Assembly (NCBI GenBank): GCA_004297445.1
Contig: SCUK01000012.1
Location: forward strand, 1-64,000
Reading direction: 5' to 3'
Source of the DNA: Anaerolineae bacterium
GTDB lineage: Bacteria > Chloroflexota > Anaerolineae > Anaerolineales > UBA11579
DNA: 64,000 nt
Below the pieces are notes generated by a model. The model was not told where the DNA came from. It ran no database searches and saw only the letters and a program-made list of their open reading frames with translations. Made by a program: the position numbers and the translations under genes. Within the stretch, counting starts at the first letter, position 1; every line of letters begins with the position of its first letter. Of the stretch, positions 48,673-62,979 are shown in pieces.

Positions 48673-48832
48673 ACGGCTATTGTACGTTACGGTCACCCGC
48701 TCCCGCTTCCCAGCGACTCTCGCGATGGTGTTGACTCACTCTCCAAAAATCACTACGATTACAATATGGTTGGTGTGGCCCAGTGCAATCCGTTGGGCCG
48801 CTTGGCCTTCTGACCGGTTTCGAGGAGTTTCG

Positions 48833-50320
48833 GTGAATCCTACTTACCTGTTCGTCCATCCCCTCATTGGCGCGGTAGCTGTCGGCCTTGTACTGTATGC
48901 CTATTACTTGAAGGCTGGCAGCCGCAAGCGGCAATTGGCGCATTACTGGTCCGGGCTGGGCGCGCTGGGCACCATGCTGTTCGCAGTGGGCTATGCGGCC
49001 TACGCGCTGGGTCGCCGCAGCGAGGAACTGGGCGATTTCCCGCAACTGTTCGGCACATTTACCCCGCATTACTACATTGCCCTGGCGTTGCTCCTGGCGA
49101 TCACCGCTCAGGTGGCGATGGGTCTCTCGATGCGCTTCCGGCCGGAGTGGATTCCGGGTATCCGGGTTTGGCACTGGCGCGTCTCGCAACTCCTCCTGGT
49201 ACTCGTGGGTCTGCTGGCCCTCATGGGTGTACCCACTTTCTTTGTATTGCTGGACAGCCGGCCCGTGCTTCAAATCCTGCTTACCACGGCCGCGCTGGTG
49301 TTCATCGGCGGCGGCGTCTGGCTATTCCTTAATTTGGAAAGAGACTCGCTAAAAGGCTCGCGCTTCAATCGTAATGCGGTCAAGCGCATCCCGGCGGACC
49401 GGTTGGTCAAGATTACCTATCGGCCGGATGGCCGCGCGGTGCAGGCCGAACGCGGCCAGAGCATTTTGCAGGCCTCGCTGCAAAACGGCATCCCGCACAC
49501 GCATGTCTGCGGCGGCAATGCCCGTTGTTCCACCTGTCGTGTCGCAGTGGTGGAAGGGCTGGAGAATCTTGAAGGTCGTAACAAACTGGAACAAATCCTG
49601 GCGGACAAGCTGGACTTCCCGCCCTTCATCCGGCTGGCTTGCCAGGCCCGCTTGAGCGGCGGCGATGTGGAAGTGCGCCGCCTTGTGCTGGATTCGGAAG
49701 ATATCGCCCTGGCCAACCAGCTCAAACGCCCGGTGACAGCCAACGCAGTGGGGCAGGAACGCGTGCTGGCCATCCTGTTCTCGGATATCCGCGGCTTCAC
49801 CACCTTCGCCGAGCGCCTGCTGCCCTATGATGTGGTGCACGCCCTCAACCGCTATTACACCCGCGTTGGCGATGCCATCTACCGTCACGGCGGTGAAATC
49901 AACAACTACATGGGCGATGGTTTCCTCGCCTTGTTTGGCCTCAATGGGCACGACCGTGACCCCGCCGTGCGGGCCGTGGATGCCGGGCTGGAAATGCTGG
50001 AAGCCATGGAAGAACTCAAACCCTATTTTGAAGCCACCTATGGAGCGCCATTTGAAATTGGCATCGGCGTTCACCTGGGCCCGACGGTCGTTGGCGGGTT
50101 GGGCGCCCGCGATCCCAAACGCGTATCGGCAGTCGGCGATTCGGTTAACTTTGCCAGCCGAATTGAAGACGCCAACAAGCAGAATGGCACCCGCTTCCTC
50201 ATATCAGAAGACGTGTACCTGCGTGTGCGCGGTCATGTGCAGATAGGCCGCCAGTTCCCCTTCATCGCCAAGGGCAAGTCCGGCAACTACAGCCTGTACG
50301 AAGTGCTGGGGCGCGACTGA
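48833..50320 (+). CDS. Class III nucleotide cyclase with membrane heme-b-like and [2Fe-2S] ferredoxin domains
   Basis: I start at GTG 48833 (495 residues), five bases after GAGGAG; the track's start adds 51 unlikely residues. The first 175 residues hold five helices with histidines in or near them (FVHPLIGA, LAHYWSG, TPHYYIALAL, WHWRVSQ), resembling a cytochrome b561/DUF4079-like heme domain. A ferredoxin domain follows, with ligands in HVCGGNARCSTC near 223 and LACQARL near 269. The C-terminal cyclase has metal-binding Asp in LFSDIRGFTTFAE (315) and MGDGFLALFG (360). The Lys that usually precedes the GD motif and reads adenine is replaced (INNYMGD). It probably couples redox state to cAMP or another cyclic nucleotide; this is inference. 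Confidence 0.87.
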   Translation: MNPTYLFVHPLIGAVAVGLVLYAYYLKAGSRKRQLAHYWSGLGALGTMLFAVGYAAYALGRRSEELGDFPQLFGTFTPHYYIALALLLAITAQVAMGLSMRFRPEWIPGIRVWHWRVSQLLLVLVGLLALMGVPTFFVLLDSRPVLQILLTTAALVFIGGGVWLFLNLERDSLKGSRFNRNAVKRIPADRLVKITYRPDGRAVQAERGQSILQASLQNGIPHTHVCGGNARCSTCRVAVVEGLENLEGRNKLEQILADKLDFPPFIRLACQARLSGGDVEVRRLVLDSEDIALANQLKRPVTANAVGQERVLAILFSDIRGFTTFAERLLPYDVVHALNRYYTRVGDAIYRHGGEINNYMGDGFLALFGLNGHDRDPAVRAVDAGLEMLEAMEELKPYFEATYGAPFEIGIGVHLGPTVVGGLGARDPKRVSAVGDSVNFASRIEDANKQNGTRFLISEDVYLRVRGHVQIGRQFPFIAKGKSGNYSLYEVLGRD

Positions 50321-50414: not shown

Positions 50415-53400
50415 CTAGCGGTTGGTCTCGTCGTTATCGTCCGGGTTACGGCATTCCCGGTCGTTCATATCCACCTGCCCATCGCCATCGTTGTCGCTGC
50501 CATCACTGCACTGCGGCGGCACTGGCGTGGGAGTATTGGTCGGCACTCCTGTCGGTTCCGGCGAGGCGGTGAAGGTCGGGGTGATGGTCGGGCCGGGCGT
50601 GAAGCGTGGCTGCTCCTCACAACTTCCGGTGACAAACCCGAAGCGTTCTTCAGTGGGCACATAGCCGATGCCAAACTGCGATTCTACTGCCCACCATTCC
50701 CCGTCCAGGCTTTGGCCGACGACCTTCGTCGATTCTCCCGCCTCAAAGTCGCCGATGTCGCCATAGGCAGTCGAGGAGGGGCCGGTGCGGATGAAGACAT
50801 TGATTGACGCCGTCCAGATGCACGGCTCAGCGGGCGGGGTTGGGGTGGCAGTGGGCTGGTCGGCCACCGGGCTGTCCGGGTCCGGTGGGGCCGCCTGGCC
50901 TTCGCCGGCTGGGCGGTCAAACCGCCCGGCAAGCTCATCCCCCGGCCCGCAGTCGATCCATAGCGTGAAGGTTTCCACCGCGCCGGGTTCGTAGTCCATC
51001 GGGAAAATCAGGAACAGGAAAGACTCTTGCCCGCCTTTGGGCGCGAACCACAGCATCTGCATGTCGTCCTGCACGGAGGGTTTGTCCAGCGCGTTGCCAT
51101 TGGCATCCAGCACCATCGGCAGGATGCCCTGGCCAAGCCCTTCCAGCATCACCTGTTGGCGGTAATCCGGGGAGTACCAGCCGTCCTCGTCAGGGTCGCA
51201 ATCCGGCAGCGGTAGCAGGGCATAGTCGCCCGGGTCGCCCCGCACATCGGCATCCTGTTTCTTGCCGTCCGGTCGCAATGGATTGTCCTTGCCCTTCCAG
51301 GGGAAGCCGCCAATGGTTGCGCGTTCATCTTCGCCGCAGCCGGATGGCGCGATGGGATGCGGGGGCACCAGCATTTCACCATTGGGCCCCATGATGGGCG
51401 CGGTGTAGGCCAGCCCGGCGCCGAAGTCATCCTGTCCGGGGCAGATATCGCAGGCATCGCCCTGGCCATCGCCATCCGAGTCTGCCTGGTCCGGGTTCGC
51501 CAGGAACACGCAGTTGTCCGGCTCGCTCAGAGCGCAGGCTACCATTCGTGTGTTGCCGGTGGTTCGCACCCGCCCCAGTTGTGGCACGCAGGAAAGCAGA
51601 CCGCCTTCCGGCACGCCATCGCCGTCCATATCGCTGTCGCAGGCATCGCCGGTGCCATCGCCGTCAAAATCAGACTGGCTGGAGTTGGCCTCCGTCGGGC
51701 AATTGTCTTCGATGTCGAGGACATTATCGCTGTCGTCGTCATCGCACAGGTCGCCCTTGCCGTCGCCGTCTGTATCCGCCTGGCTGGCGTTGGCGATGAA
51801 CTGACAATTGTCAACACTATCCTTGTCGCCGTCATTGTCATCATCATCGTCGCATTTGTCACCCTTGCCATCATGGTCATTGTCTTTCTGGTCAGGATTC
51901 TTGAACTCCGGGCAATTGTCGACGGCATCGTCTACCCAGTCCTGGTCGTTGTCCTGCCAGCCGATGTCCAGGTCGCCGTCACAGTTGGCGTCGCCGTCCA
52001 CTAACTCAACCGCCGCCAGCGAGTTGCGCACCTGGCAGGCATCGAATGCCGTGAAGCCATTCGTGCCATTGGCCGCCCATGTCTCTGCCCTGCCGATTGT
52101 GAGCAGCGCCATCATCTGCATACTGCTGTTGGAGGTCAGGCTTTTCATGACGGAGTAGGACAGCCGGCCCATCTTGGTGACACCGATGCCGGTCGTGGTC
52201 CAGCCGTTGAAGAATCCGCCGACCGCCATCTGGTAAGCGGCGCGGTTGGTGATGCCGCTATTGCGGTGTACGCCGCCGCTATCGTCCGAGTCCTGGTTGT
52301 ATTTTGACCACATGTCCCGGTTGGGGGTGATCAGCGAACGCTCAAAATCCGGGCAGCAGGTATCGCCCATCGTCCAGTCGCCGCTGCCGGCGAATGCTGC
52401 CATCACATCGGCATAGGATTCATTCAGCGCGCCGGATTGGTTCATGTACACGAGGGCGGAGGTGTCCTCAATGACGGCATGGGTGAATTCATGCACCATC
52501 ACGTCATAGCCCACCCAACCGGTATCGAACTGGATGGACTCGCACCAGGCGCCGGTCCAGTTGGCGTTGCCGCCCAGTCCGGCGTGGACGTAGATATCCA
52601 ACTCGGTGGAGTCGTTGTCCCACGAGTGGCGGTTGAACGTGTTGTGATAGAACGTATAGGCATAGCGCGAATACCACCAGGCCTTGCCTGAATCCGTGTC
52701 GTTCAGGTGGGATTCGACCAGCCCGTCTTCGCTGCCGATGTCTTCTTCGCCGGTGCTATCCCAATAGCAGTTGGTGTTAAAGGCATCCAGCCCGTTGGCA
52801 TCTTCAATATCCAGCGCGTAGCCATCCAGGTCGCCGCCGCCATCCGCAACCAGCGTGTAGGTCAGCAACACCTCGCCTGTATTGGCGTCAACGTAATAGC
52901 GCGCCGGGTTTCCACCGCCCAGTGTGACCTGCCAGGCCAGGTGGGTATCGCGCGGCAGTTCCTCGCTCAACAGGCTTTCATCAAAGACCATCAGGGTCGT
53001 TACGCCAAGGACGATGCCAGAGCCCTCGCCGGCAGCGGCTTTGGCCGCCATCTCGGCTTCCGCAGGGGCCAGCGCCGGCACCGGGTCGAGCCTGACTTCG
53101 CTGAGGATATCGCCGGCAGTAGTGATTACCTGGTTGCCGCTCAGCGACACCACCAGTTCACCGCCGAAAACCGGCAGTCCCTGGTACGTCTGGAAGAAGG
53201 TCACCGTCTCGCCCTCAAACGTGTCCACCTTCTCGACATGCAGTTCCAGATTTGGGTCGCCCAGGTTGTAGAGGTCGCCATATTTCTCCAGGTAGGCGAG
53301 CGCCCGTTCCACCGGGTCGCCGCCGGAAACCTCCACGTTGGCGATCAGGGCGATGGGTTGGCCATTGCGGAACAGGAACTCGGGCGGCCTCGAAGCGTCG

Positions 53401-53555
53401 GCTTGCAGTTGTTCCATCGCCACCACTTGCGGGCTGAGTGTCTCTTCGTCCGCAGTGGGTGCGGCGCCACGGCCCCGCCAAAGCAAAATTGCCGCTAAGG
53501 CAAGGGCGGCAATTACAAATAGTCCAATCGCAATGCGTTTGGTTTGCGCGTTCAT
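50415..53555 (-). CDS. Secreted M4-family (thermolysin-like) metalloprotease with TSP3 and SH3 domains
   Basis: 1046 residues. Order: signal or anchor (IAIGLFVIAALALAAILLW), an FTP/PepSY-type propeptide (about 75-240, GGELVVSLSGNQVITTAGD, YYVDANTGEVLLTY), then the M4 catalytic domain. That domain has the zinc motif MVHEFTHAVIE near 355, the third ligand in LNESYADVMAAF near 385, and a His/Asp site in HRNSGITNRAAYQ. Calcium-binding thrombospondin type 3 repeats follow (525-670, DTDGDGKGDLCDDDDSDN-like), then a Cys-containing beta region, a TP linker, an SH3-like domain (INVFIRTGPSSTAYGDI, near 920-985) and a final Asp-rich EF-like tail (SDNDGDGQVDMNDREC). It should be an extracellular calcium-stabilised protease, matured by cleavage of its propeptide. 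Confidence 0.92.
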   Translation of the reverse strand: MNAQTKRIAIGLFVIAALALAAILLWRGRGAAPTADEETLSPQVVAMEQLQADASRPPEFLFRNGQPIALIANVEVSGGDPVERALAYLEKYGDLYNLGDPNLELHVEKVDTFEGETVTFFQTYQGLPVFGGELVVSLSGNQVITTAGDILSEVRLDPVPALAPAEAEMAAKAAAGEGSGIVLGVTTLMVFDESLLSEELPRDTHLAWQVTLGGGNPARYYVDANTGEVLLTYTLVADGGGDLDGYALDIEDANGLDAFNTNCYWDSTGEEDIGSEDGLVESHLNDTDSGKAWWYSRYAYTFYHNTFNRHSWDNDSTELDIYVHAGLGGNANWTGAWCESIQFDTGWVGYDVMVHEFTHAVIEDTSALVYMNQSGALNESYADVMAAFAGSGDWTMGDTCCPDFERSLITPNRDMWSKYNQDSDDSGGVHRNSGITNRAAYQMAVGGFFNGWTTTGIGVTKMGRLSYSVMKSLTSNSSMQMMALLTIGRAETWAANGTNGFTAFDACQVRNSLAAVELVDGDANCDGDLDIGWQDNDQDWVDDAVDNCPEFKNPDQKDNDHDGKGDKCDDDDDNDGDKDSVDNCQFIANASQADTDGDGKGDLCDDDDSDNVLDIEDNCPTEANSSQSDFDGDGTGDACDSDMDGDGVPEGGLLSCVPQLGRVRTTGNTRMVACALSEPDNCVFLANPDQADSDGDGQGDACDICPGQDDFGAGLAYTAPIMGPNGEMLVPPHPIAPSGCGEDERATIGGFPWKGKDNPLRPDGKKQDADVRGDPGDYALLPLPDCDPDEDGWYSPDYRQQVMLEGLGQGILPMVLDANGNALDKPSVQDDMQMLWFAPKGGQESFLFLIFPMDYEPGAVETFTLWIDCGPGDELAGRFDRPAGEGQAAPPDPDSPVADQPTATPTPPAEPCIWTASINVFIRTGPSSTAYGDIGDFEAGESTKVVGQSLDGEWWAVESQFGIGYVPTEERFGFVTGSCEEQPRFTPGPTITPTFTASPEPTGVPTNTPTPVPPQCSDGSDNDGDGQVDMNDRECRNPDDNDETNR

Positions 53556-53737: not shown

Positions 53738-53772
53738 ATAAAGAGAGAGCCGCGTTCCGGCTCTCTCTTTTT
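53738..53772 (-). terminator. Intrinsic terminator of the methyltransferase/ATP-grasp gene
   Basis: AGAGAGAGCCG / CGGCTCTCTCT forms an 11-bp stem; on the minus strand it is followed by TTTATTTATTC. It lies 17 bp after the stop codon. Confidence 0.85.
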
Positions 53773-53788
53773 GATGAATTGACCAGGC

Positions 53789-55801
53789 TTAGTTCTGTGA
53801 CTGCGCCGCGGGCTGGGTTTTCTTGACCCGCAGATACTCGACGTTAATCTTGTACGGGCCCGGCTTGCGGTGGCCGTTCTGCTGGATGCGCTGCTCGGCG
53901 GCTTTCAGAATCATGCCCAGCATTTCCGGATATTCATGCCCGGCCAGTTTCGCCATTTTGGCCAGGTGGCCGTCCCAGCACCAGCCGGGGTTGGGGTTGG
54001 CTTCCAGCAGGTGCGGGTTGCCCTCGGCATCCAGTCGCCAGTCGAAGCGGGCGTAGTCGCGCAGTTCAAGGCGTTCGAACATGCGCAGGCTGCCCTGGGC
54101 GATTATCTTTTCCGTGGCGCGCGGCAGTTTGGCCGCTTTGCTGGTCAGCAGCCAGTACGGCGAGTCCGGCTGCCACTTGGCCTCGTAGCCGCAGATCTTC
54201 GGCCAGTCTTCCGGAATGGCGGAGTAGTCTTCTTCGCCAATCGGTAGGATGGAGAACGAGGTCGTGTTGCCGATGACGCCGCAGGTCAGGTCAGTGCCGG
54301 TCAGGAACTTCTCGGCTAGGATGGTGGTGTCCGGCCCCACTTCCTGCCGGATGCGCGTGACGGCGTTGAGCAGTTGTTCCGGGTTGTGCACCACGCTGTC
54401 GCGGGTTATGCCCAGGCTGTTGTCGCCCTGGTTGGGTTTGAGGATGGCCGGGAAGGCGAAGGGCAGATTGACGACCTTGTCTTCCGGGCGAATGACGGCG
54501 CCGGACGCTACCGGCACGCCCATTTGCTCGGCGAGGCCGCGTACCAGGCTCTTGTCGTAGCAGTAGGCCAACGCCTGCGGGTTGGAGCCGGTGTAAGGCA
54601 GGCCGAGGATTTCCATCATCGCCGGCACATGCAGTTCCTTGCGGGCTTCGTTGTTGAAACCTTCATCGCACAGGTTCAGCACCAGGTCGGCTTTGCCCAC
54701 CTGGGCGCGCAGGTCGTCCAGCAAAGTGGCATGGTTGGTCAGGTAGGTGACGTTGTACTCCGGTAGTTTCTTGAGCGCCAGCTTCATCTGGTCAATGGTG
54801 TGGAAGTCGTCGTCGTCGAAACAATTACCCAGTTTGGTGAGGTCCGGTAAGCTGGGGTCGCCCATGACGACGACGAGATTCTTGACCGCTTTGCGCGCTT
54901 TGCCGGGCTTGACCGGGGTCCAATCTTTGTCCAATTCCGCGGTCACGAGGATGCGGTGCGCCATCATGCCGAGGTCCTGGTTGCGCTGGGAGTTGGGCGT
55001 GATGCCGCCGTGCACCTGCACGTTGGCGAAGCCCGCCATGCGCAGCAGGTCAGAGAGGCTCTGCGGGGTGTACAGGCGTTCGGCGTAGAACTGGTCGGCC
55101 AGCACGCCTTCTTCGGTGTGGGTGATGACTTCGCGGGAGATCAAACGCTGGCCGTCAGCGCCCAGGCTGCGCTCGCGGCACACGAAGTGCTGTTTGTCGA
55201 TCCATTCCCAGGAGCGTTTCTCAAAGTTGGCGCGCATGTAGTCGCCATCGGTGACGTCCAGGAACAGGCGGCCGCCCGGTTTGAGCACGCGGAAGATTTC
55301 TTCCAGCACCTGCAGGTCGTCTTCCACGGTGTCGAAATAACCGAAAGAGTTGCCCATGACCATCACGACGTCAAAGGTGTCCGCGTGCTGGGGCAGTTTG
55401 CGGGCATCGCCCTCGCGGAACTTGATGGGCAGGCCTTCCTTCTTGGCGCGGCTGCGCGCCCGGCTGATGAGGTACTGCGAACGATCCAGCCCTTCCACGT
55501 AGTGCAAACCGCGGCGCGCCATTTCAAGCGTATGGCGGCCCTGGCCGCAGCACAGGTCCAGGATGCGTTGTTCCGGCGTGAGGTTCAGAATCGCCGAGAA
55601 CTGGTCGATTTCGCTGGTCGTGATGGTGGGGTCTTCGACGACGTCGCCGTCGGTCTTCAGGTAAAGTGCATTAAAGAGGCCGCGCCACCAATCTGGGCGG
55701 ACGTGGGCCTCGAGGTTTTCAAGGGGGCCCAGGGCTTTACCCCGGTTACTGGGAGGCTCTTCGGCGGGTTTCGCCTTGGGGGTCTCGTTGTTATTGCTCA
55801 T
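53789..55801 (-). CDS. SAM methyltransferase fused to a D-Ala-D-Ala-ligase-like ATP-grasp domain
   Basis: 670 residues in two enzymes. The N-terminal half (30-290) is a Rossmann methyltransferase with motif I in ILDLCCGQGRHTLEMA, GLDRSQYLISRARSRA, and a VVMVMGNSFGYFD motif IV. The C-terminal half (310-650) is a Ddl-type ATP-grasp: LVLNLCDEGFNNEARKELHVPAMMEILGLPYTGS, CYDKSLVRGLAEQMGVPVA, AILKPNQGDNSLGI, ILAEKFLTG, and metal ligands in LLEANPNPGWCWDGHL. Together they suggest ligation of two amino or carboxylic substrates and methylation of a substrate or product, as in peptide-like natural products, mycosporine-type pathways or carnosine/anserine-like dipeptides. No other biosynthetic gene is adjacent, so the product is unknown. 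The ATG follows AAAGGAGAC. Confidence 0.88.
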   Translation of the reverse strand: MSNNNETPKAKPAEEPPSNRGKALGPLENLEAHVRPDWWRGLFNALYLKTDGDVVEDPTITTSEIDQFSAILNLTPEQRILDLCCGQGRHTLEMARRGLHYVEGLDRSQYLISRARSRAKKEGLPIKFREGDARKLPQHADTFDVVMVMGNSFGYFDTVEDDLQVLEEIFRVLKPGGRLFLDVTDGDYMRANFEKRSWEWIDKQHFVCRERSLGADGQRLISREVITHTEEGVLADQFYAERLYTPQSLSDLLRMAGFANVQVHGGITPNSQRNQDLGMMAHRILVTAELDKDWTPVKPGKARKAVKNLVVVMGDPSLPDLTKLGNCFDDDDFHTIDQMKLALKKLPEYNVTYLTNHATLLDDLRAQVGKADLVLNLCDEGFNNEARKELHVPAMMEILGLPYTGSNPQALAYCYDKSLVRGLAEQMGVPVASGAVIRPEDKVVNLPFAFPAILKPNQGDNSLGITRDSVVHNPEQLLNAVTRIRQEVGPDTTILAEKFLTGTDLTCGVIGNTTSFSILPIGEEDYSAIPEDWPKICGYEAKWQPDSPYWLLTSKAAKLPRATEKIIAQGSLRMFERLELRDYARFDWRLDAEGNPHLLEANPNPGWCWDGHLAKMAKLAGHEYPEMLGMILKAAEQRIQQNGHRKPGPYKINVEYLRVKKTQPAAQSQN

Positions 55802-56036
55802 TCGTTGTGTCTCCTTTTGCGCGCCTTAAAAAATCAGCGCCCCCCTTGTGGGAGGCAGCGGGGCATCCATTGTAAGGGTGCGAGCCAATAAGTGGCTATG
55901 AGTGCGCGCTTCTGACTGTATTATGACGCGTTTTGAGCATATGTCAATCTTTGGCGGTAGTTAGAAAGTATGATGTTTTTGTGAGGCGAAAGGCCACAGA
56001 TTTCTCTGTGTGTGGAGTGAGGAGATTTCACGCCCA

Positions 56037-57568
56037 TCAAGCCATCATCCCGCCCAGCCGCGGGCGGTATTGCAGCGCCTCGGCGAGGTGCGCGGGGGTG
56101 ATGTGGTCTTCGTTGGCGAGGTCGGCAATCGTGCGCGCCAGTTTTAGGATGCGGTGGTAGGCGCGCGCCGATAACTGCATCTGTTTCATCGCGCTGTTCA
56201 GCAGAGTCTGGCTGCTTTCGCCCAGCGCGCAGTGCAGGCGAACTTCGGCCGGGCCCATGTCCGCATTGAAGGCGATGTCCGGTTTTCCGTCGAAGCGCGC
56301 CTGCTGTATCTGGCGGGCGGCGGTAATGCGCGCCCGTAGGACGGCGCTGGTCTCGCCGCGCCGCTCGTCGCTCAGTTTCTGGTGTTCCACGCGCGGCACT
56401 TCCACGTGGATGTCAATGCGGTCCAGCAGCGGGCCGGACAGCCGTTTCTGGTAGCGGGTGATGAGGCTGTGGTTGCAGGTGCAGGGTTTGACCGCATCGC
56501 CATAGTAGCCGCATGGGCAGGGGTTCATCGCTCCCACCAGCTGGAAGTTGGCCGGGAAGGTGGACGGCCCGTGCGCCCGGCTGATGGTGACGGTCTTGTC
56601 TTCCAACGGCTGGCGCATTACTTCCAGCACGCGCTGACCGAACTCCGGCATCTCGTCGAGGAACAGCACGCCGCGGTCGGCCAGGCTGATTTCGCCCGGC
56701 TGCGGCCAGTTGCCGCCGCCCACCAGCCCGGCGTGCGAGATAGTGTGGTGCGGGGCGCGGAAGGGCCGTTCGCGCACCAGCGGCACATCCGCGGGCAGTT
56801 GGTCGGCCACCGAGTAGATGCGGGTGACGTCCAGCGCTTCGTCCAGCGTGAGCGGCGGCAGGATGCCGGGCAGGGCGCGCCATCAGCGTTTTACCGGAGC
56901 CCGGCGGCCCGACCAGCAGCACGTTATGCCCGCCGGCCGCAGCCACTTCCAGGGCGCGCTTGACGTGCTCCTGGCCTTTGATTTCAGCGAAGTCGGTGGT
57001 GAGGGCGTTGAGTTCAAATTCGGCCGGCGGGGTGAATTCCTGCGCGGCGATGCGGTCGTAGCCGTTAAGGTGGTTGACGAGTTCGTGCAGATTTCGCACG
57101 GGGATGACGTCCAGTTCCGGCACCAGCGCGGCTTCGGGGGCGTCTTCGGCGGGCACGAACAGGCGGGTGTAGCCTTCCTGGCGCGCCAGCGCCGCCATCG
57201 GCAGCACGCCGCGCACATGCCGCACCACGCCGTCCAACGACAGCTCGCCCAATATGAGTGCGCCCTGCACGCGTTCTTCCGGTATCTGGCCGGTGGCGGC
57301 CAGCATGGCGACGGCAATGGGCAGGTCGTACACCGGCCCGACCTTGCGCACGGAGGCCGGGGCGAGGTTGACGGTGACTTTGTTACTGGGGGGGGTGAAA
57401 GCCGGCGTTCTTGATGGCGGCGGCGACGCGTTCTTTGCTTTCCTGCACGGCGGCATCCGGCAGGCCGACGATGGTGGAGCGCGGCAGGCCCGCGCCGGTA
57501 TCGACTTCCACCTCCATCACCACGCCGTCCAGGCCGATGACGGCCCCGCTGAACACCCGCGCGAACAT
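56037..57568 (-). pseudogene. comM: comM/yifB (magnesium chelatase-like AAA ATPase), broken by two frameshifts
   Basis: ComM/YifB is an AAA helicase-like protein that promotes branch migration during transformation recombination. The gene starts at ATG 57568, 6 nt after TACACT of a consensus promoter. It reads in one frame to HPPQ*, where an 8-C run at about 57388-57395 should have 7 C to continue [18 protein letters not shown]. It then reads on to the Walker A ([16 protein letters not shown]), where two bases of a GCGCGCGCC-type run near 56870-56880 appear deleted. The frame resumes with [23 protein letters not shown] and ends with a typical LAEALQYR. Zinc or cluster cysteines in [10 protein letters not shown] survive. 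The three ORF-track pieces (57383-57568, 56413-57456, 56037-56810) are this one gene. Sequencing error is the alternative. Confidence 0.87.
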
Positions 57569-61089: not shown

Positions 61090-62979
61090 ATGTCCATAAT
61101 GCTTGAGGGTCTCACCAAACGTTATGCGGGGCTGCCCGTGGTCAACAATCTTTCGCTGGAAATCGGCGCCGGCGAGTTCTTCGTGCTGCTCGGCTCCAGC
61201 GGCAGCGGCAAGACCACCGTGCTGAACATGATCGCCGGGCTGACCTCGCTGGACCAGGGGCGGATTTTGCTGCATGACCGGGATGTCACGCGCCTGTCCA
61301 CCCAGGACCGCCGGGTGGGGTTTGTCTTCCAGAACTACGGCCTGTTTCAATACATGAATGTGGCAGAGAACATCGAATTCGGCTTGAAGATTCGCAAAAC
61401 GCCGCGCAAAGTTCGCCGCGCCCGGCGCGATGAGTTGCTGGAACTGGTGGGGCTGGTGGGCCTGGGCGACCGCATGCCGCGCCAGCTTTCCGGCGGCCAG
61501 CAGCAGCGGGTGGCGCTGGCGCGGGCGCTCGCGCTCAAACCGGATGTACTGCTGCTGGATGAACCGCTGGGCGCGCTGGATGCCAAGATTCGCATTGACT
61601 TGCGCCGCAGTCTGAAGCGTATTCACCGCGAGCTGGGGGTGAGCGCCATTCTGGTGACCCACGATCAGGAAGAAGCCTTTGACCTGGCAGACCGCATTGG
61701 CGTGATGAGCTTTGGCCGGTTGATTGAAGTGGGCACGCCGGAAGACCTTTACCAGCGCCCGCAGACCGAATTCGTCGCTTCCTTCCTCGGTACCGCCAAC
61801 CTGTTGCTGGGCCAGGCGACGCCGCAGGGGGTCCAGCTGGGTACACAGAAGTTCCCGTTGGCGAATCAGGAAGACCAATCCGCGTCCGATGGTCGCGTGC
61901 AGGTGCTGTTCCGGCCGGAAGATGTCGCCCTGGCGCCGGAGGCGGAGGCACTGGGAAGCCCGGCTCTGTCCCAGGGACGGGTGATTGAGACCGGATTCAT
62001 CGGCACGGCCCAGCGTCTGCGCCTGGAAACCCAGCCCTTGCCCAATGTACGTCCGATTTCGCCAGCTCCGGCATATGGCAACCGCAATATCCTCATCGAC
62101 GTGACCCGCCCGCCTGACCAGGCGCGCCAGTTCCCGCTCGAAAAAGGTGATTCCGTGTGGATCGGCCTGCGTAGCGTGCACGCGCTTTCACACCCCGGGT
62201 TGAGTTTCCTGCTGGTGACGGACGGTTCGCCGCGCAGCCGCGCCGGGGTAGCCCTCGCCGGCCAGATCGCCCGCCACGCCCATGCCCGCATGACGGTGCT
62301 GGCATGTGAGCGCAAGCCGCACGCGCTGGATGCCTACCTGGAAGAAGCACGCAAGGAACTGGGCAGCGGCCTCACGGCACTGGAAGTTCACCGCAGCCAG
62401 AAACCCATCGAGGAGGCGGTGCGGGTGGAGATTGAAAGCCGCCCGCTGGACCTGATCATCCTCGCCGTGAAGCGTCGCGGTGACATGGACCTGGCCGAGG
62501 AACTTCTCAACCTGGGTGAGCATCATCTTCTCTTCGTGCCGGCCGAACAGCCATTGCCCCGCCACGCGCTCATCTGTTTGAAAGCGGGCGAACCGGGCAA
62601 GGATGATGTGCTGTTTGCCGGCCGCCTGCTGCGCCACCTGGGCGCCGAAGCCACGCTGTTGTGTGTGCTGTCTGAAACCGAGAACCCGGAGCTGGACGAA
62701 CAGCAGGCGAACCGCTTTCTGGAGGGCGGGCGCGAGTCGCTCTCCTTGCTGGGAGTCAATTCCGATACACAGCTGAGCGAGGGGCCGGCGCTCGATACGT
62801 TGCTGACGGGAATCCGCAATCCGGAAGTAGACCTGGTAGTCATGGGCGCGCCCTTGCCGCGCCCGGGTCGTCCCGCCACACTTGAGGGAGTTGTGGGCCA
62901 ATTGCTGCAGAAGACGCAGGACAAGGCCTTCCTGATCGTCCGTTCTCACTACCTGCAAAAGCCCTACTCCAGGCAGTAG
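61090..62979 (+). CDS. Sulfate-type ABC transporter ATPase (CysA-like) fused to two universal-stress-protein-like domains
   Basis: 629 residues. The N-terminal 235 are a CysA/PotA-like ATPase: Walker [11 protein letters not shown]-loop in FVFQNYGLF, signature LSGGQQQRV, Walker [13 protein letters not shown], and H-loop in [14 protein letters not shown]-like regulatory region follows (240-370). The last 250 residues look like two tandem UspA folds ([68 protein letters not shown]; final VVMGAPL). A tandem UspA tail on an importer ATPase is unusual; it may sense nucleotide or stress and gate transport. The start follows AAGGAAA. The substrate-binding gene follows 85 bp later; permease genes are probably beyond the window. 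Confidence 0.88.

Follow-up and report, generated by a model that had tools for sequence, protein, structure and literature searches.

A probable two-step methyltransferase/ATP-grasp ligase encoded by an orphan fusion gene of bacteria and archaea

A gene that joins a methyltransferase to a ligase resembling D-Ala-D-Ala ligase (Ddl), with no other pathway genes beside it, raises the question of what such a protein could accomplish on its own. This gene lies on the minus strand at positions 53789..55801 of the window, by which the whole 64,000-nucleotide stretch of Anaerolineae contig SCUK01000012.1 analysed here is meant, and it forms a single intact open reading frame of 670 amino acids, counted from its ATG. 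The encoded protein is composed of a class I SAM methyltransferase half (residues 24-290; 54932..55732, minus strand), delimited by the PF13649 match, invariant residues and the AlphaFold model; a linker (residues 291-305; 54887..54931, minus strand), recognised by low pLDDT and by dN/dS; and a Ddl-type ATP-grasp half (residues 306-645; 53867..54886, minus strand), assigned by PF07478 and Foldseek. The Pfam matches are well above their thresholds, with 84 bits (cut-off 27) for Methyltransf_25 (PF13649) at residues 80-177 and 78 bits (cut-off 24) for Dala_Dala_lig_C (PF07478) at residues 426-632.

Comparison with the copy of a congener (L035) gave dN/dS values of 0.05 and 0.06 for the methyltransferase and ATP-grasp halves, respectively, and of 0.33 for the linker; because purifying selection acts on both halves, the fusion is not a chance open reading frame. 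The constraint on the two halves is similar, as their mean pairwise identities among homologues are 0.686 and 0.695, and 112 columns are invariant across 72 aligned fusion homologues. In the AlphaFold model (mean pLDDT 83.8) both domains are well folded, with a pTM of only 0.53, at which their mutual orientation is not confident; the termini and linker residues 296-304 are modelled less reliably. In one homologue (G378, L116:232-2586) the linker is longer by about 100 residues and has a high Asn-Gly content, so the spacing between the halves appears to be free, and the linker can be described, as modelled, as flexible and variable in length. Taken with the conserved residues described below, the intact frame and the Pfam matches agree with the original prediction that two apparently active enzymes are joined here.

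The methyltransferase half has the Rossmann-like fold and the SAM-binding motif of class I SAM methyltransferases. Foldseek matches it to SAM methyltransferase structures such as 3d2l, and in the alignment of homologues the SAM-binding region DLCCGQGRH is conserved and many polar residues are invariant. Enzymes of the Methyltransf_25/11 type (PDB 9ri2, 3d2l) share the fold, the SAM motif and the region of the NSFGYF motif, whereas the fusion has its own N-terminal signature, NLEEHVxPDWWRxIFNSLYLKTDxDVV, and a large invariant set of polar and aromatic residues; glycine-sarcosine N-methyltransferases are further removed from it than these two structures. A PADLOC search returned one match, to the mad2 model, which was rejected as covering only the generic methyltransferase domain.

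The ligase half is a member of the ATP-grasp superfamily by fold and motifs, and Foldseek ranks Ddl structures first for it (TM about 0.8 by target). Its residues were read from an alignment of the 72 homologues to E. coli DdlB, the roles of the DdlB residues in ATP and Mg binding, phosphoryl transfer, and D-Ala1 and D-Ala2 recognition being those familiar from the Ddl literature. The equivalents of the ATP/Mg residues K97, K144, K215, R255, D257, E270 and N272 are kept in 71-72 of the 72 proteins. At K542-W543 (54173..54178, minus strand), the catalytic Lys215 is retained and Tyr216 of the Ddl triad has become Trp in 72/72, while WCWDGH at residues 607-612 (53966..53983, minus strand) takes the place of the D-Ala2 motif MTSHSL, with its Ser281, again in all 72. 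The D-Ala1 triad Glu15-Ser150-Tyr216 is likewise not preserved: the Glu15 position is occupied by Pro in 57/72 and otherwise by another residue, and Ser150 is kept in 67/72 and replaced by Asn in the window protein. Judged from this alignment, the fusion ligase has lost the D-Ala-binding residues of Ddl and has retained those for ATP and Mg. The claim that the ligase is a complete Ddl-like enzyme is therefore upheld for its fold and ATP chemistry and is not upheld for its substrate residues (Tyr216 to Trp, MTSHSL to WCWDGH). Two invariant Trp and an Asp in the altered acceptor pocket suggest that its ligand may be an amine that is basic or methylated.

Ddl enzymes (DdlA/DdlB, TIGR01205) and VanA-type ligases remain the closest solved structures, sharing the ATP-grasp fold, the ATP/Mg residues and PF07478; the fusion differs in carrying a methyltransferase, in occurring in archaea and in being devoid of the D-Ala1 triad and the D-Ala2 motif. 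Against TIGR01205 the ligase half scores 111.9 bits, below half of the cut-off of 245.65. The original prediction had named as its critical point whether this half is the only housekeeping Ddl of the genome. It is not, since a canonical Ddl of 373 amino acids is located on another contig between murB and ftsQ (neighbours named by eye from translations). In the Methanoculleus isolates checked, the fusion is the sole strong Ddl-type match. The label D-Ala-D-Ala ligase on such fusion genes is wrong, and annotators should be cautious with it.

The gene is provided with its own expression signals. A promoter-like, near-consensus TTGACA-16-CATAAT element (55947-55920, minus strand) is followed by a 5' leader with three predicted hairpins (55802..55919, minus strand), and an intrinsic terminator with a 13-pair stem and a T-rich tail, identified by sequence, is present at 53740..53770 on the same strand. 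Three species of the genus share both the promoter and the hairpin leader, while their flanking DNA has diverged. The genes on either side are on the same strand, each at a distance of about 235 bp. An operon with them was considered and rejected, as the promoter and the terminator bracket the gene and the neighbours vary between species; because they differ among the three species, the fusion gene stands alone, in accordance with the prediction of a monocistronic gene with its own terminator. The last leader hairpin (55857-55838) is terminator-like and immediately precedes the ribosome-binding site, so that the leader could possibly be an attenuator, with no covariation among only three sequences; an Rfam search of the leader (55802-55919) gave no match.

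The orphan character of the gene extends to its homologues. Across approximately 80 loci, recurrent gene families next to the fusion are confined to small groups of loci, and inspection by eye of 19 additional neighbourhoods from methanogens, Asgard archaea and desulfobacteria showed no conserved neighbour, which corroborates the predicted lack of other pathway genes. One such small group is formed by four loci (L052, L075, L082 and L088; three desulfobacterial and one from a TA06 bin), where an AstE/AspA-like (aspartoacylase-like) hydrolase gene adjoins the fusion, its copies being 63-64% identical to that of L075; it was not found at the remaining loci of the approximately 80 examined.

Close stand-alone halves are very rare, and the fusion is one-to-one in all but one close relative. 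The suggestion that genomes with separate halves could be informative was followed up: one lone methyltransferase half with 55% identity was found (G675), in a tight operon after an ABC transporter gene and two SET-domain genes, whereas the nearest stand-alone ligase halves are only 38-39% identical to the fusion ligase. The nearest of these in the order of the window genome (G037, 38%) overlaps a citramalate/isopropylmalate-type operon.

More distant stand-alone Ddl-like ligases, with about 30-33% identity, are accompanied by SbnA-like, ornithine cyclodeaminase-like, KamA, GNAT and diaminopropionate-type genes, and the diamino-acid lead for the fusion comes only from ligases at this distance. 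Two such kinds, the KamA-associated ligases of Chloroflexota and a ligase on a Thioflavicoccus plasmid, are similarly non-canonical and lie outside cell-wall clusters; they differ in being stand-alone, clustered with lysine-2,3-aminomutase and diamino-acid genes, and in having other pocket residues. A visual check of the genes listed around the fusion revealed no kamA, and no neighbour recurs there; in this respect the fusion is not KamA-associated. As a separate observation, a recurrent cluster at four Chloroflexota loci (L147, L148, L149, L152) combines a lysine-2,3-aminomutase with Ddl-like ATP-grasp ligases, between one and three in number, and in some cases with GNAT and an isocitrate/isopropylmalate dehydrogenase; it looks like a beta-lysine amide pathway. 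A further non-canonical Ddl-type ATP-grasp gene, of 721 amino acids, was noticed in Desulfonema magnum (L144:5594-7759); its C-terminal half weakly matches peptidase M20, and it adjoins genes resembling gamma-glutamyltranspeptidase and N-formylglutamate amidohydrolase.

The main point, which a single window could not show, is that the same fusion occurs in both bacteria and archaea. Scanning 84,980 genomes yielded at least 589 pattern matches; of those listed, 584 also passed a tblastn check with a loose cut-off. Among these at least 589 matches, the best 80 have 57-91% identity to the window fusion and are nearly all full-length. Full-length copies at 57-64% identity occur in Methanoculleus isolates, Desulfonema magnum, Asgard archaea, Planctomycetota, Atribacterota and others; among the matches listed, the carriers are isolates of Methanoculleus and D. 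magnum and bins of Lokiarchaeota, Jordarchaeia, Planctomycetota, Atribacterota, Omnitrophota and others. For many of these loci the source is a metagenome bin that may carry an incorrect organism label, although no such doubt applies to the isolates of Methanoculleus and Desulfonema. Judged by lineage names, the carriers are apparently mostly anaerobes. Plasmids and phages yielded distant single-half matches only.

The distribution is patchy. A full-length fusion is present in 3/61 relatives of the window genome, all of one genus, and in 2/400 genomes of a Chloroflexota sample; in Methanomicrobiales it was found in 43/120 genomes, with some copies broken, and in the Lokiarchaeota phylum in 26/148. 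The corresponding counts are 9/297 for the Desulfonema phylum (one of the 9 being the methyltransferase half alone) and 9/294 for the Planctomycetota phylum (one of the 9 being a distant ligase half only). Broken or partial copies in the methanogen genomes G474:C2, G465:C1 and G532:C58 suggest occasional loss. In a quick tree of 72 proteins, bacterial and archaeal copies are mixed, and six label changes are required to account for the archaea, of which at least two are forced by well-supported branches; bin contamination could inflate this number, and more than one change is in itself no proof of transfer. We read the fusion as a probable horizontally mobile single gene.

With a probability of roughly 60%, the fusion is a self-contained bifunctional two-step enzyme of a widespread, uncharacterised family, acting on small metabolites. 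This reading builds directly on the fusion itself, the conserved ATP/Mg residues and SAM motif, the lost D-Ala sites, the orphan context and the distribution across domains; the small-molecule substrate, the amide bond, the order of steps and the product are inferred, and successive ligation and methylation of one small compound, as originally predicted, would be one form of it. The ATP-grasp half would activate a carboxylate as an acyl phosphate, which would then be joined to the amine (or another nucleophile) of a second small substrate other than D-Ala, and the tethered methyltransferase half would move methyl groups from SAM to one of the substrates or to the product. Both substrates would probably be ordinary primary metabolites, amino- or diamino-acid-like, and therefore one gene would suffice as a pathway and could spread horizontally. 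A more tentative extension, to which we give somewhat less than even odds, is that this one gene constitutes the full pathway to a dipeptide-like, methylated metabolite not yet described (an osmolyte, a protectant or a cofactor-like compound), which methanogens, Asgard archaea and diverse, apparently mostly anaerobic bacteria would have in common and whose single mobile gene would have passed between them.

Such an architecture has partial parallels. The GNAT–ATP-grasp N-acetylglutaminylglutamine synthetase unites a group transferase and an ATP-grasp ligase in a single polypeptide that makes a dipeptide solute; the fusion differs in having a methyltransferase instead of an acetyltransferase. 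In the anserine pathway (on anserine, see PMC10539627), one small methylated dipeptide results from the joint action of a dipeptide ligase of the ATP-grasp type and a SAM methyltransferase. The likeness to carnosine synthase and carnosine N-methyltransferase is a functional analogy only; these are encoded by separate genes and belong to different enzyme families. The present fusion is not among the ATP-grasp and methyltransferase fusions mentioned in the main-text passages found in an archaeal fusion survey (PMC11237513), and no description of it was found in the open-licence literature searched.

The chief rival to a small-metabolite enzyme is modification of proteins, whereby the ATP-grasp half would attach an amino acid to a protein, either on a side chain or at the C-terminus, for the methyltransferase to cap, possibly in concert with small SET-domain lysine methyltransferases. 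The absence of neighbours fits a protein substrate and a small molecule alike, and the lone 55% methyltransferase half does sit in an ABC-SET-SET-methyltransferase operon. Moreover, a related SET gene, the sole SET in each of five Methanoculleus-type genomes checked, is located about 3-5 kb from the fusion. Among Methanomicrobiales, 30 genomes have both genes, 13 the fusion only, 8 SET only and 69 neither (Fisher 3e-11; 9e-4 after removal of the syntenic cases), although the test is uncorrected for phylogeny and counts genomes that are not independent as if they were. However, SET is missing from many fusion carriers and is present in 29/61 relatives of the window genome, most of them without the fusion, and the SET pair in the genus of the window lies beside recN, away from the fusion. 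Because SET is common in relatives that have no fusion, and stands beside recN in the genus, the SET-domain partner is a lead only. Since the ligase fold is moreover of the Ddl type and not of the RimK/TTL type, protein modification is regarded as unlikely.

Still less probable is an arrangement in which catalysis is confined to one half while the other serves as a sensor or regulatory domain, for instance with SAM sensing controlling ligation. The rigid one-to-one fusion would suit this reading; yet catalytic and cofactor residues are kept and similarly constrained in both halves, and the methyltransferase also persists alone. About equally improbable, or slightly more so, is a RiPP or graspetide-like enzyme modifying a ribosomal precursor peptide. 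ATP-grasp and methyltransferase pairs do occur in RiPP pathways, and the methyltransferase half weakly resembles the daptide methyltransferase model, but no short open reading frame within 1.2 kb of the fusion is conserved across 80 loci beyond groups of four, and the Ddl-type ligase matched no graspetide family. A housekeeping or resistance-type D-Ala-D-Ala or D-Ala-D-Lac ligase that merely happens to carry a methyltransferase, which the best family and fold matches to Ddl/Van enzymes would favour, can be practically dismissed, given the score (112 bits against 246), the missing triad and D-Ala2 motif, the separate Ddl in the murB-ddl-ftsQ cluster and the occurrence in archaea, which are without murein.

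In this family two familiar folds are locked together across bacteria and archaea with no neighbour betraying their function, and expression combined with metabolomics could directly reveal a new small molecule. Such direct discovery is feasible because the gene is apparently self-sufficient and is present in cultivable Methanoculleus species and in D. magnum.

Several other genes of the window deserve mention. Directly downstream of the fusion, positions 50415-53555 (minus strand) encode a thermolysin-type M4 metalloprotease with thrombospondin type 3 repeats. A Mg-chelatase-like (YifB/ComM-type) gene at 56037-57456 (minus strand) is broken into two overlapping frames (56413-57456 and 56037-56810), its frameshift being either real or an assembly error. 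On the plus strand, a class III nucleotide cyclase is fused to a 2Fe-2S ferredoxin domain (48680-50320), and an ABC-transporter ATPase (61090-62979) matches the universal stress protein family in its C-terminal part, which is an uncommon fusion.
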